Assembly: GCA_020062745.1 (NCBI GenBank)
Contig: JAGUVT010000062.1
Location: 1 to 32,389 of the forward strand
Origin: Deltaproteobacteria bacterium
GTDB taxonomy: Bacteria > Bacillota > Desulfotomaculia > Desulfotomaculales > JAGUVT01
DNA: 32,389 bases
Direction: 5' to 3'
The notes beneath the pieces were generated by a model that did no database searches, was not told the DNA's origin, and worked only from the letters and a program-made list of their open reading frames with translations. Positions 1,261 through 29,494 of this stretch are shown here, one piece after another; the first letter of the stretch is position 1; every line of letters begins with the position of its first letter. A program made the position numbers and the translations under genes.

Positions 1261-2055
1261 CTAAAATCCCAATATCCGCCTGAGCTTTTTGGCCTGGGCC
1301 CGACTTACCGGCACTTCGCTGCGCTCCTTGTCTTCCAGGATCAGGGTATAAGTCCCGTTAAAGAAAGGCACAATCTCCTTAACCTTATGCAGGTTTACCA
1401 GGTAACAGCGGTGGGTGCGGAAAAACATCTGCGGTGGAAGCCGGGCTTCCAGTTCCTTCAGGGTAAAACGGGTAAATAATTTATCGTTACCGGTTTTCAG
1501 ATAAACATAATCCTGCTCGGTAAAGGCGTAAAATATATCCGACTCGGTAACCAGAACAGTCTTACCCTGTTTTTCGGCCGGCAGACGGTCAATCTTAATC
1601 TGGCCCCGGTCGGCCTGCTGAGCAACCGGCTCAGCCGTATCCCGCAACTGCCTCTCATGACCGTTAGCTCCATCCAAAGCCAGCGTCTCCTGATGGACCT
1701 TAATCACTTTATCAATCGCCTTTTTCAGCCGTTTGGGGTCAACCGGTTTCAAAAGATAATCAATGGCACTAACCTCAAAAGCCGAAACCGCATATTCTTC
1801 ATAAGCAGTTACAAAGATAACGTGGGGGGGATTGGGCAGTTCCTGAATGGCAACGCTTAGCTCCAGCCCGTTCATGCCGGGCATGGCTATGTCAATAAAC
1901 AGGACGGAATAATCAAGGGCCTTGATTAACGCCAGTGCCTCCTGGGCATTAGTTGCCTCTCCAACAATTTCGATACTGTCAAATTCGCTCAAAATATAAC
2001 GCAGTTCCTGACGCGCCGGATATTCGTCATCAACAATCAATGCTTTAAGCTTCAC
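1261..2055 (-). CDS. LytTR-family response regulator
   Basis: Cytoplasmic response regulator and transcription factor, partner of the adjacent LytS-type kinase. Length 264 residues. The N-terminal receiver domain (about 1-120) has the acidic pocket DDE near residue 9-11, the phospho-acceptor Asp in FIDIAMPGMNGLEL, the switch Thr in VTAYEEYAV and the Lys in LLKPVD. After a linker of about 45 residues comes a LytTR DNA-binding domain (about 160-264) with the typical FFRTHRCYLVNL and VSRAQAKKL. The GTG start at 2055 has AGAGG six bases upstream and overlaps the end of the kinase gene by 11 bases. Family members bind direct repeats in promoters of cell-envelope, transport or competence genes; the target here is not visible, and no symbol beyond the family is justified. 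Confidence 0.93.
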   Translation of the reverse strand: MKLKALIVDDEYPARQELRYILSEFDSIEIVGEATNAQEALALIKALDYSVLFIDIAMPGMNGLELSVAIQELPNPPHVIFVTAYEEYAVSAFEVSAIDYLLKPVDPKRLKKAIDKVIKVHQETLALDGANGHERQLRDTAEPVAQQADRGQIKIDRLPAEKQGKTVLVTESDIFYAFTEQDYVYLKTGNDKLFTRFTLKELEARLPPQMFFRTHRCYLVNLHKVKEIVPFFNGTYTLILEDKERSEVPVSRAQAKKLRRILGF

Positions 2056-3361
2056 CGACGACCTCTCCCCTCACCCGCTTGCGTATCAAAGGAACCCGGA
2101 TAAAAACCGACGTACCGCCGTTTACCATGCTTTCAATACGCAAGCCGTAATTTTCACCGAAGAAACCCTTTAAACGTTCATGAACATTACTTAAACCCAC
2201 CCCGTTACCAGAACCAAAACCAGGCTGTAAAACTTTCGACAGTTTATCCCGGCCGATTCCCACTCCGTCATCTTTAACCACCAGGAACATTTCCCCCTTA
2301 ACCAACCGGGCCGAAATATGGATTGTGCCCCGGCCCATTTTAGGTTGAATGCCGTGCTTAACTGCGTTTTCCACCAACGGCTGCAAAGTCAAAACCGGCA
2401 CTTGATAATCCAGCAACCCGTTGTCAATGTCCTTCTGGATATGAAGCTTTTCCCGGAAGCGTGCTTTCTCCAGCACCAGGTAGGTATTAACATATTCAAT
2501 TTCCTCTTTTAAGGTTACGAAATGCCCGTGCTTCTTCAGGGCATGACGAAAAAACGACGCCAGTCGGATTAACAGCCGACGCGCAGTTTCCGGGTTGGTA
2601 CGGATGTAAGTAATAATAGTATTCAAGGTGTTGAATAAAAAGTGGGGATTTATCTGAGCGTGGAGAGCCTCCAACTCGGCTTTGGTCACCAACTGGGTCT
2701 GGTGATCTAACTCTGCCAGTTCCATTTGAAGACTTAAGAGCTGGGCTATGCCTACTGCAAGTTTGACCATTTCAGGCGCCGGTTCACCCTGGCTGGTCTG
2801 ATACAGCTTAACCGTCCCGGCCACTTCGCCCTTACACTTTAAAGGAGCAATTACAGCCGCCTGCAAGGGACAATCACCAACCGGGCAGTTGAGACCTTTT
2901 TTGTCGTTGACCACCATCAGTTCACCGGCAGCTATAACCTGTTTGGTAGCATTAGTTAAAATCGGCCCGCCCGGTTTATGGTGACCGGCGCCGGCGCCGA
3001 TATAGGCCAGCACTTTCTCCCGGTCGGTAATAGCCACCGCCGACATATCACTAATTTTGTGGATTATTTCCGCTGTCTTCAGGGCAGTTTCCTCATTCAA
3101 GCCGCGCCGCAGGTAAGGCAAAGTTTCGTTGGCAATACGCAAAGTCGGATCGATGGAATGGTCATCCAGGTCCATCCTAAAGCTTTTGCGTTGCCGGATG
3201 AAACTAAACACCAGGCAAACAGTCAGGACATTAGCAATGAGAATAGCTCCAACCGCCCCCAACTGGTTAAGTCCACTATACAAGATAACCAGTATTAAAA
3301 CAAGCTGAACCACACCCCACCGCACATAAATCCCGGCCGGAATGCTTTTAAAAAGGTTCAT
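2045..3361 (-). CDS. LytS-type sensor histidine kinase with GAF-like domain
   Basis: Membrane sensor kinase that phosphorylates the overlapping LytTR regulator. The start at ATG 3361 has a strong GGAGG six bases upstream. A longer frame to 3439 is open, but it runs through the promoter and has no ribosome site. Length 438 residues. Two transmembrane helices lie near 14-30 and 34-55, not the five or six helices of classical 5TM-LytS. A GAF-like domain (about 80-215) holds the pair NCPVGDCPL, two cysteines four residues apart as in other LytS/BtsS relatives. The His-kinase region has QINPHFLFNTLN with phospho-acceptor His240. A C-terminal HATPase domain has LVENAVKHG and DDGVGIG. The ligand is unknown; it could be a cytosolic metabolite or redox signal, given the small membrane part. 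Confidence 0.92.
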   Translation of the reverse strand: MNLFKSIPAGIYVRWGVVQLVLILVILYSGLNQLGAVGAILIANVLTVCLVFSFIRQRKSFRMDLDDHSIDPTLRIANETLPYLRRGLNEETALKTAEIIHKISDMSAVAITDREKVLAYIGAGAGHHKPGGPILTNATKQVIAAGELMVVNDKKGLNCPVGDCPLQAAVIAPLKCKGEVAGTVKLYQTSQGEPAPEMVKLAVGIAQLLSLQMELAELDHQTQLVTKAELEALHAQINPHFLFNTLNTIITYIRTNPETARRLLIRLASFFRHALKKHGHFVTLKEEIEYVNTYLVLEKARFREKLHIQKDIDNGLLDYQVPVLTLQPLVENAVKHGIQPKMGRGTIHISARLVKGEMFLVVKDDGVGIGRDKLSKVLQPGFGSGNGVGLSNVHERLKGFFGENYGLRIESMVNGGTSVFIRVPLIRKRVRGEVVGEA

Positions 3362-8105: not shown

Positions 8106-9926
8106 CTACTCTACCGTCACGCTTTTGGCCAGGTTGCGCGGTTTATCCACGTCGCAGCCCCTGCCTACAGCGGTATAGTAGGCCAGCAGTTGCAGGGGAA
8201 TGACGGTGAGCACGGGGGCCAATACGGGGTGGGTGGCGGGAATGTAGATCACCTGCCCGGCCACTTTTTCCACTTCGTCAAGGCCGTTCATGGCCAGGGC
8301 CAGTACGGAAGCGCCCCGGGCCTTTACTTCCTGGATGTTGCTGATCATTTTTTCAAACAGGGCGCCCTGGGTGGCCAGGGCCACTACCGGCACGCCTTCC
8401 TCAATCAGGGCTAGGGTGCCGTGTTTTAACTCCCCGGCGGCGTAGGCTTCGGCCCGGATGTAGGAAATTTCCTTCAACTTCAAGGAACCTTCCAGGGCCA
8501 CGGCATAGTCCAGGCCGCGACCGATAAAAAACATGCCGCTGCAGTCAACGTACTGTTCCGCAAAGGATTTGAGGCCGGCCGTGTTGTCCAGGATGAACTG
8601 AGCCTTGTGGGAAAGCTTCTTTATTTCCAGGATAATCTGGCGCAAATCCTCCCGGCCGACGGTTTTTCTCTTTTCGGCCAGGTAGAGAGCAAACAGGTAC
8701 ATGATCAGCAATTGGGAAGTGTAAGCCTTGGTCGAAGCCACGGCAATTTCCGGCCCGGCCCAGGTATAAAGCACGTCGTCAGCCTCCCGGGCCACCGAAC
8801 TGCTGACAACGTTGGTCACGCCGACCACGTGCGCGCCGTAGCGCTTTGCTTCCCGGAGGGCGGCCAGGGTATCCGCCGTTTCTCCGGACTGGCTGATCAC
8901 CACCACCAGGCTGTCCCGGTCAACAAGGGGCTGGCGGTAGCGGAATTCCGAGGCGATGTCCACTTCCACCGGCAACCGGGCCAGTTTTTCAATAATATAT
9001 TTACCCACCAGGCCGGCATGGTAAGCCGTGCCGCAGGCAGTAATGAATATTTTCTTTAAACCGGCAACATCCAGTTGCAGGTCTTCAAGGGCCACCCCGC
9101 AGTCGTTTCCGCCAATCCGGCCGCTCAAAGTGTCCCGCAGGGCCCTGGGCTGTTCGTAAATCTCTTTCAGCATGAAATGGTCGAATCCGTTCTTCTCGGC
9201 CTGCTCGGCAGCCCATTTCACTTCGAATACTTCTTTCGCCACTTCTTGCCCGGTCCGGTCCAGCACCTTCACCCGTTCCCTGGTAAGAACGGCAACTTCG
9301 CCGTCGTTAAGGATGTAAGTGCGCCTGGTGTGTTTCAACAAAGCCGGGATGTCTGAAGCCAGAAAGTTTTCCCCCCGCCCCAGGCCCACTACCAGTGGGC
9401 TGTCCTGCCGCACGGCCACCACCCGGTCCGGTTCCGGCCCGGCCACTACCGCCATGGCAAAGGAACCTTCCAGGCGGGATACGGCCTCCCGCACCGCTTC
9501 CACCAGGTCGCCCCGGTAAAAATGCTCGACCAGGTGGGGGAGCACTTCGGTATCGGTCTCGGATTGAAAGACGTGTCCTTCCGCCTTCAGCCAGTCCCGT
9601 AACGGCAGGTAGTTTTCGATAATGCCGTTATGAACCACTGCAAACCGGCCGCTGCAGTCGGTGTGAGGGTGGGCGTTGGCGTCGGAAGGACGCCCGTGGG
9701 TGGCCCAGCGGGTGTGTCCGATGCCAGCCACGGCCGGATATGCCCGGCCGTTCAACTTTTCCTGCAGGGCAGCTAGTTTGCCCGCCTGCTTCTCAACATG
9801 CAGGCGGCCGTCCACCGGGAAAACCACGCCGGCCGAATCGTAACCCCGGTACTCCAGTTTTTGCAATCCGTCAAGCAATATAGGGACGGCTTCTTGTTCG
9901 CCGATATAACCAACAATACCGCACAT
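8106..9926 (-). CDS. glmS: Glutamine--fructose-6-phosphate aminotransferase (isomerizing)
   Basis: Makes glucosamine-6-phosphate from fructose-6-phosphate and glutamine, the first committed step to UDP-GlcNAc, peptidoglycan and other amino-sugar polymers. Length 606 residues, typical. The N-terminal class-II glutaminase domain begins with MCGIVGYIG, so Cys becomes residue 1, and has GHTRWATHG. Two SIS domains follow (about 280-600), with ITACGTAYHAG, ISQSGETADT and the C-terminal KPRNLAKSVTVE. The ATG start has AGGAGG nine bases upstream. A glmS ribozyme lies in its leader, so mRNA level should fall when GlcN6P is abundant. It sits downstream of cdaA and glmM on the same strand, placing consecutive pathway enzymes together. 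Confidence 0.98.
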   Translation of the reverse strand: MCGIVGYIGEQEAVPILLDGLQKLEYRGYDSAGVVFPVDGRLHVEKQAGKLAALQEKLNGRAYPAVAGIGHTRWATHGRPSDANAHPHTDCSGRFAVVHNGIIENYLPLRDWLKAEGHVFQSETDTEVLPHLVEHFYRGDLVEAVREAVSRLEGSFAMAVVAGPEPDRVVAVRQDSPLVVGLGRGENFLASDIPALLKHTRRTYILNDGEVAVLTRERVKVLDRTGQEVAKEVFEVKWAAEQAEKNGFDHFMLKEIYEQPRALRDTLSGRIGGNDCGVALEDLQLDVAGLKKIFITACGTAYHAGLVGKYIIEKLARLPVEVDIASEFRYRQPLVDRDSLVVVISQSGETADTLAALREAKRYGAHVVGVTNVVSSSVAREADDVLYTWAGPEIAVASTKAYTSQLLIMYLFALYLAEKRKTVGREDLRQIILEIKKLSHKAQFILDNTAGLKSFAEQYVDCSGMFFIGRGLDYAVALEGSLKLKEISYIRAEAYAAGELKHGTLALIEEGVPVVALATQGALFEKMISNIQEVKARGASVLALAMNGLDEVEKVAGQVIYIPATHPVLAPVLTVIPLQLLAYYTAVGRGCDVDKPRNLAKSVTVE

Positions 9927-10092
9927 AAAACCTTACCTCCTGCTCAATACTTTTCATTAAAGCAAAAATGCCGGGCGGAGCAAAGCCACGGCACCGGAAT
10001 CTGCCAGCACCTATTAAGCCCGAGGGGTGCTTTCCTGATCAGGTCAGCTTTACCCGCCGGGCACACTTATCCCGTGCAATACCGCTTCGTCA

Positions 10093-10222
10093 CCGGGCAC
10101 TTTTGTCCCGGCAGTTGCCTGCCGGATTTGTAATGCCGCTAACGGTCGTGACCGGACCGGGGAGCACCCGCCGAAATTCTCGATTAACTCCCTCCTCGTC
10201 AACCCTTAAGGGTTCAGGCGCT
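10093..10222 (-). ncRNA. glmS self-cleaving ribozyme/riboswitch
   Basis: Minus-strand leader of glmS. The cleavage-site motif A|GCGCC is at 10222/10221-10217, followed by a short P2 hairpin AACCC-TTAA-GGGTT and the invariant core segment GTTGACGAGG. Next come ATCGAGAA, TTCGGCGGGTGC and the GGTC...GACCGTTAG segment. P4 is a hairpin CCGGCAGGCAACTGCCGG, and P3 is closed by CGGCATT pairing with AAGTGCCCG (one bulge). This matches the known ribozyme of Bacillus class in order and sequence of conserved blocks. It uses glucosamine-6-phosphate as cofactor and cleaves the glmS mRNA, lowering its stability. The 3' border is approximate; the spacer between ribozyme and glmS start is about 165 bases. Confidence 0.95.
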
Positions 10223-10298
10223 TAACGGTCAAGGCGTTTCCTGAAAACAACTCTCCGGTGCTGTGATTGTTTGGCGTTCAGAAAACACCCCGCCTTAT

Positions 10299-22185: not shown

Positions 22186-23118
22186 TTATTCGCCACGGCA
22201 TGAACAGCCGCAGTTGCAACTGCAGGCCGCCGCTGCTTCTCCCGGGTAAATCAACGGACCGTCGACTTTGGTCAACTCGCGAAAGGCTTTAATCAGCTCC
22301 CAGGTCATCTCGCCCGGCCTGCCGTTGCCAATCAGCCGCCCGTCCACTTTTACGGTAGGAATCGCTTCCGCCGCCGTACCGGTCATGAAACACTCGTCGG
22401 CAATATAAACGTCATGCAGGGTAAATAATTTTTCTTCCACCGGGATGCCCTTCCGGCGGGCTATTTCCATAATGGTATTGCGGGTAATCCCTTCCAGGAT
22501 ACCGGCGTAAGCCGGGGGTGTGATCAAAACCCCGTTCTTTACGATAAATATATTGTCCCCGGTAGCCTCGGCCACATAGCCCTCGGCATTCAGCAAAATG
22601 GCCTCCGGCACCCCGGCTAAATTGGCCTCAATCTTGGCGTAAATATTATTGAGGTAATTTAAAGATTTCACCCGCGGGTTGCAGGCTTCGGCAATATTCC
22701 GCCGGGTGGATACGGTAATCACTTCCAGGCCCTTTTCGTATAACTCGTCCGGGTAAAGTTGAATGGTGGCCGTAATACAGAAAATAGTCGGCCTCGGACA
22801 TTTTTGCGGATCAAGCCCCAGGTCGCCGGCTCCGCGGGACACCACCAAACGGATGTAAGCATCCCGTTGATTGTTGCGCCGCAAGGTCTCCAACACCACT
22901 TCCTGCATTTCCGCCTTCGAAAGCGGTATTTGCAACATAATGGTTCTGGCCGATTCGTAAAGGCGGTCCAAATGATCACCAAGTTTAAACACCCGGCCGT
23001 AATAAGCCCTGATTCCCTCAAAAACACCGTCCCCGTAAAGCAAACCGTGGTCGAAAACAGAAACTACCGCCCGCTCCTCCGGTACAAATTCACCATTTAA
23101 AAAGATAATTAAACCCAT
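22186..23118 (-). CDS. ilvE: Branched-chain amino acid aminotransferase with Cys-rich tail
   Basis: PLP-dependent fold-IV aminotransferase for Leu, Ile and Val. Length 310 residues. The PLP lysine lies in RVKSLNYLNN, the phosphate-binding region in EATGDNIFIV and GILEGITRNT. The ATG start has AGGAGGG eight bases upstream. The last 13 residues, ACSCNCGCSCRGE, hold five cysteines alternating with other residues (299, 301, 303, 305, 307), an extension not needed by the family and looking like a metal-binding or thiol tail. It is the first gene behind the T-box leader, so the whole ilv-leu operon should respond to tRNA charging. D-amino acid or aminodeoxychorismate lyase relatives share the fold, but context settles the call. 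Confidence 0.95.
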   Translation of the reverse strand: MGLIIFLNGEFVPEERAVVSVFDHGLLYGDGVFEGIRAYYGRVFKLGDHLDRLYESARTIMLQIPLSKAEMQEVVLETLRRNNQRDAYIRLVVSRGAGDLGLDPQKCPRPTIFCITATIQLYPDELYEKGLEVITVSTRRNIAEACNPRVKSLNYLNNIYAKIEANLAGVPEAILLNAEGYVAEATGDNIFIVKNGVLITPPAYAGILEGITRNTIMEIARRKGIPVEEKLFTLHDVYIADECFMTGTAAEAIPTVKVDGRLIGNGRPGEMTWELIKAFRELTKVDGPLIYPGEAAAACSCNCGCSCRGE

Positions 23119-23184: not shown

Positions 23185-23490
23185 TAAATAAAAATAAAAA
23201 CAACCCCTGCGCCCGGCAGTCTTCTTCAAGCTGCCAGGGACGAGAGGTTAAACCTTGCGCGGTACCACCCTGCTTGCTTCTTTATAACAGAAGCCCCTTC
23301 AATGCGCCAAAAATAACGCCAGCATTGATAACGGGCACCAAGCCCGGCCCGGCTTACCTGGTACCATCCCCCTTCAGCCGGCAACTCCAGGGTGACATCC
23401 AGCCCCGTACCCATGCGCCGGTTTTCAGCTCCTCCAGCTCTCTGTGGCAGGCATACAGGCATTTATCCCCTTCATAGCTGTTTTCTTATT
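23185..23490 (-). promoter_or_regulatory. T-box leader, specifier reads GUC (Val)
   Basis: On the minus strand the T-box sequence GGGTGGTACCGCG (23258-23270) is unmistakable. Stem I is recognisable: basal CAGC/GCTG, then AGGG/CCCT, an internal loop, and GCCTGTATGCC facing GGGTACGGGGC; AGAGAGCTGGAGG lies in its upper part. The 3' side of the loop reads GGAT-GTC-ACC, making GUC (23394-23396) the specifier codon, valine. Uncharged tRNA would pair at the specifier and T-box bulge and favour the antiterminator (AGGG with CGTCCCT). The specifier reading is by eye; the T-box itself is secure. Confidence 0.93.
23187..23248 (-). terminator. T-box-linked intrinsic terminator
   Basis: Stem CCTGGCAG (23231-23238) with CTGCCGGG (23212-23219), extended outward by CCTCT/AGGGG after an internal loop, then the U-rich run TTGTTTTTATTTTTATTT. 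The 5' arm contains CGTCCCT, which is also needed by the T-box antiterminator, so the two folds exclude each other. Confidence 0.85.
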
Positions 23491-28559: not shown

Positions 28560-28841
28560 TTACCCCGACCATCCCATAAGCCTCTTCAGCTTTTTACCTG
28601 GTTTAAAGGAAATTCTTCGCGAAGGAGAAATCTGCAGTTCTTCACCCGTCCTGGGATTTCTTCCCTTTCTACCTCTTGTGTTCTTTACATAAAAAGAACC
28701 AAGCCCGATCAACCGGACTTTATCCCCTGAAACTAAAGCTGTAGAGATAGCGTTTATAACCACATCAAGAAATCTGCCCGCCTCTTTACGAGTTACTGGA
28801 ACCTCCTCAACTATTTGAGAAATTAAGTCCTTCTTGTTCAT
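28560..28841 (-). CDS. HU-family nucleoid DNA-binding protein
   Basis: Histone-like protein that bends DNA as a dimer. Length 93 residues. It has NKKDLISQIVEEV at the N-terminus, the hydrophobic core LIGLGSFYVKNTRGRKGRNPRTGEE with the GRNP hallmark (shown here only in part as GSFYV and GRKGRNPRTGEE), and a basic C-terminus FKPGKKLKRLMG. Pro in RNPRTGEE marks the DNA-intercalating arm. The ATG start overlaps the stop of the upstream HTH gene (ATGA), so it is translationally coupled. Both are under the c-di-GMP-I leader. It may be a paralogue, since a housekeeping hup is usually elsewhere. Confidence 0.95.
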   Translation of the reverse strand: MNKKDLISQIVEEVPVTRKEAGRFLDVVINAISTALVSGDKVRLIGLGSFYVKNTRGRKGRNPRTGEELQISPSRRISFKPGKKLKRLMGWSG

Positions 28842-29170
28842 TTATGTACCCGTCTCCTTTCAACGTCTAAAAGTCCTTTCAGCCAGCACAAAACACCATT
28901 TTCTTCAGTTACAGGATTAAATTCCTGCTCTTTCTCCATAACCCATCTCTTGTACCGCTGAACAAATAAATAGCCGTCCAATCCCAGGCAATCAGCATAA
29001 GTCTTCAACATCCCCTTGAAATATACCTCTGCCGGTATCAATTCAGGCACACCCTCCTCCAGGGCCTTAAGGTATTTAACCTGGATTTTAGTCCTCTCTC
29101 TCACGTCCTCTAATTCCCACCTCAAAACTTCCCTGGCCCGACGCAATTGCTCTCCAAGCTCCTTTAACAC
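28838..29170 (-). CDS. RodZ-like helix-turn-helix protein without membrane segment
   Basis: Length 110 residues. The HTH_25/Xre-like domain covers residues 1-65: LGEQLRRAREVLRWELEDV, RTKIQVKYLKALEEG and PAEVYFKGMLKTYADCLGLD. This is the RodZ N-terminal type, but the protein ends soon after a short basic helix and has no transmembrane or periplasmic part. The GTG 29170 lies eight bases after AAGGAGG. An upstream open frame to 29293 runs through the leader's terminator and is not used. Stop overlaps the HU start. DNA-binding regulator or HU partner are both possible. Confidence 0.82.
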   Translation of the reverse strand: MLKELGEQLRRAREVLRWELEDVRERTKIQVKYLKALEEGVPELIPAEVYFKGMLKTYADCLGLDGYLFVQRYKRWVMEKEQEFNPVTEENGVLCWLKGLLDVERRRVHK

Positions 29171-29243
29171 CTCAATCACCTCCTTAATCATTAATTCAGT
29201 CAATACCCAAAAACACCTTAAAGCATTGCCCAAAGGCAAGATT

Positions 29244-29284
29244 CCAAAATAAAAATCCTGTTCCCCAAGCACAAGGGAAACAGG
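29244..29284 (-). terminator. Intrinsic terminator in the riboswitch leader
   Basis: Stem CCTGTTTCCC / GGGGAACAGG (10 pairs, one G-T) with an eight-base loop (29257-29284) followed by ATTTTTATTTT. It starts 12 bases after the riboswitch P1 strand. GGAAA within the P1 3' region can alternatively pair with TTTCC of the 5' arm, a possible antiterminator. Confidence 0.88.
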
Positions 29285-29295
29285 TTCCATCACTT

Positions 29296-29388
29296 TCCTT
29301 CTTGCAGCCTGGCAATCATAGCAATATATGAAGCCTTAGATCCACGGCTTTGCGTCCCATTCTTTAAAATGGTTTGCCCTTAAAAGGA
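29296..29388 (-). ncRNA. c-di-GMP-I (GEMM) riboswitch
   Basis: Minus-strand leader of the HTH-HU operon. Conserved blocks appear in the right order: AGGGCAAACC, the hairpin CCATTT-TAAA-GAATGG, GGGACGCAAAGCC, TGGATCTAAGGC with the CTAA tetraloop-receptor word, and GCTATGATTGCCAGGCTGC. A closing P1 helix TCCTTTT (29382-29388) with AGAAGGA (29296-29302) frames it. The tetraloop is UAAA rather than the usual GNRA. It binds cyclic di-GMP in this family. The terminator after it, and the overlap of GGAAA with P1, suggest an OFF switch (high c-di-GMP, termination); the direction is inferred. Confidence 0.9.
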
Positions 29389-29465
29389 TACTTTTTACTT
29401 GACTTTTCTGGAACTTCTTCTCAATTTGTCACGGTTTAATTCTTTCCACCTTTTTCTACAAAATA

Positions 29466-29494
29466 ATTCTAAAACCAACAGTATATTTTGTCAA
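29466..29494 (-). promoter_or_regulatory. Sigma-A promoter of the riboswitch-HTH-HU unit
   Basis: -35 TTGACA (29489-29494) and -10 TAGAAT (29466-29471) with a 17-base spacer, preceded by a T-rich tract that may act as UP element. Start near 29459, about 70 bases before the riboswitch P1. Confidence 0.85.

Follow-up and report, generated by a model that had tools for sequence, protein, structure and literature searches.

A c-di-GMP-I riboswitch upstream of genes for a soluble RodZ-like protein and a second HU in a member of the Desulfotomaculales

We analysed a stretch of DNA of 32,389 nucleotides (the window; contig JAGUVT010000062.1 of assembly GCA_020062745.1), whose minus strand carries a c-di-GMP-I riboswitch and, behind it, two overlapping genes for a RodZ-like helix-turn-helix (HTH) protein and an HU-family protein. 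In the order of transcription, the locus contains:

29466-29494, minus strand: promoter, TTGACA, a 17-nt spacer and TAGAAT, with 11 of 12 consensus matches
29300-29388, minus strand: c-di-GMP-I (GEMM-I) riboswitch aptamer, RF01051, 74.0 bits, E=6e-13, model positions 1-87 complete
29382-29388, minus strand: 5' strand of aptamer helix P1, UCCUUUU, paired with 29302-29296 in the predicted lowest-energy structure of the whole leader
29294-29302, minus strand: 3' strand of P1, AGAAGGA, overlapping a putative antiterminator strand (predicted folding)
29257-29284, minus strand: intrinsic terminator hairpin with a 10-bp stem, followed by ATTTTTATTT (T-rich tail)
29176-29185, minus strand: Shine-Dalgarno sequence AAGGAGGTGA of the HTH gene, read from the sequence
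28838-29170, minus strand: gene for a 110-aa soluble RodZ-like HTH_25 protein (PF13413, 72 bits)
28560-28841, minus strand: gene for a 93-aa HU/IHF-family protein, pI 11.0 (PF00216, 102 bits)

A first-pass annotation, made from the sequence, had described the promoter, a GEMM-type aptamer, the 10-bp terminator and the two overlapping genes, and all of these were borne out. The exact promoter string occurred a single time in the window, and none of 100 shuffled sequences contained it; the distance from promoter to aptamer is about 77 nt. Running the Rfam c-di-GMP-I model, a check that the same annotation had proposed, returned the full-length match at 29388-29300, far above the gathering score of 35 bits; it was the sole c-di-GMP-I match that the covariance-model search found in the window. 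Among ten HTH-linked or paralogous aptamers, eight core pairs had changed on both sides, giving a covariation score of 0.304 as compared with 0.178 for shuffled alignments, and none of 500 shuffles scored as high; the loop-end helix (helix 4) was only 77% paired across the compared aptamers. The window aptamer retains the G that we take, from the Vc2 numbering, to mark c-di-GMP rather than cGAMP as the ligand. The expression platform, namely the terminator, is located downstream of the aptamer in the 5' leader of the HTH gene, which starts with GTG and has a strong Shine-Dalgarno sequence directly upstream. We found no sigma-70-like promoter on the minus strand between the terminator and this start, and an alternative, longer in-frame start at 29293, upstream of the terminator, is unlikely.

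Other RNA elements occur elsewhere in the window. An ordinary glmS ribozyme (10085-10233, minus strand, 100.9 bits) is located upstream of the glmS gene (8106-9926, minus strand), and a T-box leader (23233-23484, minus strand), whose 93.4 bits are just at threshold, precedes a class-IV aminotransferase gene (22186-23118, minus strand) that is the first in a long minus-strand gene run.

Because the HTH protein contains neither a transmembrane helix (its 19-residue hydropathy maximum is 0.57) nor a RodZ_C domain, we classed it as RodZ-like and not as RodZ. Its relatives behind other c-di-GMP-I riboswitches are similar: riboswitch-linked HTH proteins are soluble, 110-131 aa long and variable in their C-terminal segment, with 19-residue hydropathy maxima of 0.57-0.83 in the four that were tested. 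A sequence search of known structures with the window protein returned RodZ-type entries only (4GQM, 2WUS and 3FYM). Similarly, an AlphaFold model of the protein (mean pLDDT 81) matched chain R of 2WUS, the RodZ of a RodZ-MreB complex, with a TM score of 0.89 and an rmsd of 1.3 A. Since the fold matches that of RodZ bound to MreB, a cytoskeletal role is no less likely than a chromosomal one.

The host genome contains an MreB gene. It contains no RodZ_C domain anywhere, and its 148 contigs, among which an assembly gap is possible, hold neither a second strong HTH_25 gene nor a full-length rodZ, so that the window gene is the host's only strong HTH_25 match. A RodZ-type match is present in about 107 of the 113 genomes of the order, and almost all of these matches are full length. 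In Escherichia coli, the HTH domain of RodZ is reported to bind MreB and itself but not DNA (PMC6946637), with F60 and Y64 as the reported MreB contacts (PMC4047632). At the positions that the alignment suggests correspond to these residues, the window protein has Tyr50 and Met54, and the other riboswitch-linked members have Tyr together with Phe or Tyr. We consider a soluble RodZ domain that acts on MreB to be the leading, as yet unproven, reading; to judge from the aligned residues, the case for it is less strong in the window protein than in the other members.

The HTH protein could instead be an ordinary DNA-binding regulator with HU as its architectural partner, through which c-di-GMP would reach a transcriptional cascade. 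We regard this account as unlikely, if worth weighing: although HTH_25 belongs to an XRE-like superfamily, the lower-ranked structural matches of the AlphaFold model are DNA-binding XRE repressors, the riboswitch-linked forms have no membrane anchor and the gene is co-encoded with that of a DNA-binding protein, the best matches in both sequence and fold are RodZ domains, whose E. coli representative reportedly does not bind DNA through its HTH (PMC6946637). In addition, the net charge of the protein is near zero, and the Tyr/Phe pair at the positions of the reported MreB contacts (PMC4047632) is kept in most members.

The start of the HU gene overlaps the stop codon of the HTH gene by 4 nt (ATGA). 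The match of the HU protein to PF00216 covers profile positions 1-88 of 90, and the protein carries the GRNP motif of the DNA-intercalating arm. It is one of two HU proteins encoded by the host; the other, on contig C141, is housekeeping-like.

We found 12 c-di-GMP-I sites in the host genome, along with ten GGDEF matches, eight of them near full length. The other sites lie upstream of a pilC-pilin pair, an HD-GYP-like gene, genes for transglutaminase-like secreted proteins and a gene for a LuxR-type regulator; apart from the HTH-HU operon, the c-di-GMP regulon of the host is ordinary. In two of the leaders ahead of secreted-protein genes, the aptamers stand as tandem pairs (contig C1, 16864-17152; contig C64, 1644-1901), in which each copy has its own terminator-like stretch. 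The riboswitch before the HD-GYP-like gene (contig C54, 13296-13384, minus strand) could provide feedback on c-di-GMP breakdown.

The host is the only one of its family among the 113 species of its order that were covered. Among the 113 genomes of this order, we found eight short, non-canonical HTH_25 genes: those of the host (G000), Desulfoscipio geothermicus BM5_bin.10 (G026, two copies; Desulfoscipio below), Desulfocucumis palustris NAW-5 (G074; Desulfocucumis below), G007, G009, G111 and G112. RF01051 stood directly upstream of three of the eight, in three families, with scores of 74, 81.3 and 84.9 bits. Given 12 sites per approximately 2,700 genes, the chance rate is at most about 0.004 per gene, and three of eight would thus arise by chance with a probability of about 4 in a million. 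The riboswitch-HTH-HU arrangement is not due to chance. Three of the short proteins without a riboswitch (L045, L054 and L056, from G007, G112 and G111, respectively) form a separate clade of soluble HTH_25 proteins of 136-150 aa with a different conserved C-terminal tail.

A pattern scan of the genome collection, which looked for an aptamer core followed after 238-268 nt by the HTH motif, returned five further genomes, those of Desulfoscipio, Desulfocucumis and three Desulfosporosinus species; all five records were true RF01051 matches, at 80-85 bits. In the class of Desulfosporosinus, a search by protein only found eight short HTH loci, seven of which had RF01051 upstream; the eighth was that of G508. 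The riboswitch with a short soluble HTH gene was found, in all, in the window, Desulfoscipio, Desulfocucumis and six species of Desulfosporosinus, and, in the course of decay, in a relative, so that its range covers two classes; the Desulfosporosinus copies count as orthologues and not as independent events. None of 20 full-length rodZ loci had a c-di-GMP-I riboswitch.

HU is adjacent to the HTH gene in two lineages, the window and Desulfoscipio, among ten riboswitch-HTH loci, the window included. In Desulfoscipio, HU follows both HTH paralogues; where the riboswitch is present, 318 nt separate the two genes, and the other paralogue lacks a riboswitch. We found no HU gene beside the riboswitch-HTH genes of Desulfosporosinus and Desulfocucumis. 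A membrane-anchored RodZ-like gene in a distant genome, G152 (L120, about 2020-2900, plus strand) is followed by HU and then by a thioredoxin-like reading frame, with no riboswitch reported at this locus; RodZ-like/HU adjacency thus exists apart from the riboswitch. By these comparisons, the riboswitch with its RodZ-like HTH gene is conserved and HU is not; HU is an added partner in some lineages. Because the riboswitch and the soluble HTH gene recur in several genera and two classes, we take the HTH protein to be the core target.

These results bear on the proposal of the first-pass annotation that the operon places chromosome architecture under second-messenger control. HU is indeed encoded in the operon, but the target conserved across genomes is the RodZ-like HTH protein; as the structures matched by this protein are RodZ-type and the HTH reportedly does not bind DNA in E. 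coli, HU is what the proposal has to stand on. It should be narrowed to a soluble RodZ-like target, joined by HU in some lineages.

The same annotation had suggested that the riboswitch is probably an OFF switch, with a GGAAA next to P1 acting as the antiterminator strand. A possible pairing does exist: bases 29301 and 29298-29294 can pair with 29280-29275 in the 5' arm of the terminator, overlapping the 3' strand of P1, with a predicted pair probability of 0.85-0.95 before the 3' arm of the terminator exists. However, 118 of 300 shuffled linkers matched this pairing, which is no better than chance, and the antiterminator alone is therefore no evidence. Folds of the full leader with P1 and the terminator (-41.7 kcal/mol) and with the antiterminator (-40.3 kcal/mol) are nearly isoenergetic. 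The leaders of other genomes gave mixed outcomes: shuffled linkers equalled the pairing in 20 of 300 cases for G512 and 36 of 300 for Desulfoscipio, values that are suggestive only; the antiterminator of the SRJS8 leader was not above its shuffled linkers (228 of 300); and folding prediction gave no antiterminator pairing in several Desulfosporosinus leaders.

The leader of G515 has no terminator. Its Shine-Dalgarno sequence, GGAGG, is the end of the aptamer and lies inside the predicted 3' strand of P1, so a P1 closed by ligand would block translation. G515 is better support for an OFF switch than the antiterminator of the window. With this leader and the bistable fold of the window, an OFF switch, in which c-di-GMP would reduce expression, is plausible rather than demonstrated, and on these folding models we think it the probable direction. 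An ON switch, in which binding of c-di-GMP prevents termination, seems to us rather improbable: the terminator and antiterminator folds are so close in energy that folding order could decide the direction, and the window antiterminator does not rise above chance, but the overlap of the P1 3' strand with the antiterminator strand is the arrangement expected of an OFF switch, the Shine-Dalgarno sequence of G515 is hidden in P1, and we found no fold in which a bound P1 prevents the terminator.

We next consider how the pairing of riboswitch and HTH gene arose. In a tree of the HTH proteins, those of Desulfosporosinus and Desulfoscipio were joined (100/92), and those of the window and Desulfocucumis were placed elsewhere on long branches. 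A single clade for all riboswitch-linked HTH proteins was weakly rejected (AU test, p=0.027) and was not rejected when Desulfocucumis was left out (p=0.24); this test is soft because it relies on 88 columns and includes two long branches. Repeated recruitment of the pairing is likely, not certain, on the protein sequences. The nearest relative of the window aptamer is that of the host's own HD-GYP-like gene (77.5% identical), followed by aptamers linked to HTH genes in other species (66-70%) and, well behind, by the host's remaining aptamers (57% or less).

The unit can also decay, as two genomes indicate. Upstream of the HTH gene of Desulfosporosinus G508 (L113, 1459-1860, minus strand) stands an orphan terminator that matches the riboswitch terminators of sister species; a check for a weak aptamer at this locus found none, with the terminator alone remaining as a trace of riboswitch loss. 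In G233, the riboswitch is kept and the HTH reading frame is broken. That the window unit is a neutral leftover of little function, its aptamer copied from the HD-GYP leader to the HTH-HU pair, would agree with the close identity of those two aptamers and with the decay in G508 and G233, but is most improbable given that the promoter, aptamer, terminator, Shine-Dalgarno sequence and both reading frames are intact in the window and that the pairing recurs in other genera, where it apparently arose more than once.

In the mechanism that we propose, P1 would close at high c-di-GMP and take its 3' strand away from the antiterminator, the terminator would form and both genes would be OFF; at low c-di-GMP, the operon would be transcribed. 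The HTH protein would correspond to the part of RodZ that binds MreB in the cytoplasm, freed of the membrane anchor, and would tune MreB and the elongasome, the second HU would alter the nucleoid, and cell shape and chromosome state would change along with the switch between motile and sessile life. We put at about even the chances that the HTH-HU operon is controlled in this manner, by a c-di-GMP-I riboswitch acting through an intrinsic terminator. A broader reading is that c-di-GMP, through the riboswitch, sets the level of a soluble, unanchored RodZ domain, which takes the place of RodZ at MreB or competes with it there, and of a dedicated second HU, such that elongation and the nucleoid would be switched along with the decision between motile and sessile life, and that sulfate-reducing Firmicutes gained this control on more than one occasion; we offer this reading as speculation that may well prove wrong. 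Because the pair of sensor and RodZ relative recurs in other sulfate-reducing Firmicutes, our comparisons suggest that c-di-GMP may regulate the cell skeleton in addition to motility and adhesion.

The known c-di-GMP-I regulon of appendages, matrix and signalling enzymes would then also take in the cytoskeleton that shapes the cell and, in some lineages, the nucleoid. Soluble RodZ-like domains under riboswitch control are a recurring and apparently undescribed type of gene. Desulfosporosinus is culturable, and one species has a translational and not a transcriptional platform, which gives two independent readouts of the direction of switching.

According to reviews, GEMM-I riboswitches control genes for motility, biofilm, surface structures and signalling (PMC7266159, PMC3766115). 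We found no report of a rodZ-like or HU target of a c-di-GMP riboswitch in the open-licence literature searched, and in that literature the view of the first-pass annotation that no such case had been characterised holds. The riboswitch class is known; its target family here is apparently unreported.

The window riboswitch shares its aptamer core and terminator platform with known c-di-GMP-I riboswitches such as Vc2 and the flagellar switches of Clostridioides difficile. It differs in its target: the known targets of the class serve motility, adhesion, pili, signalling and the cell surface (PMC7266159, PMC3766115), whereas this one precedes genes for a RodZ-like HTH protein and HU. The HTH protein has in common with RodZ (YfgA/YmfM) the N-terminal HTH_25 domain, but has neither the transmembrane helix nor the periplasmic RodZ_C domain; furthermore, RodZ is encoded at an ftsK-rodZ locus, whereas the soluble RodZ-like genes are riboswitch-controlled and stand beside HU or alone. 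The window HU has the full-length fold of HU/IHF proteins (PF00216) and, unlike housekeeping HU, is a second, divergent copy whose start overlaps a riboswitch-controlled RodZ-like gene. Finally, c-di-GMP is reported to control nucleoid proteins by binding them directly: H-NS in Salmonella (PMC10657408), CdbA in Myxococcus (PMC7156744) and Lsr2 in mycobacteria (PMC10808224). There, c-di-GMP affects nucleoid organisation or the activity of a nucleoid protein, as we propose for the window HU; in those systems the ligand binds the protein, whereas control of the window HU would be RNA-based and exerted at transcription of the gene.
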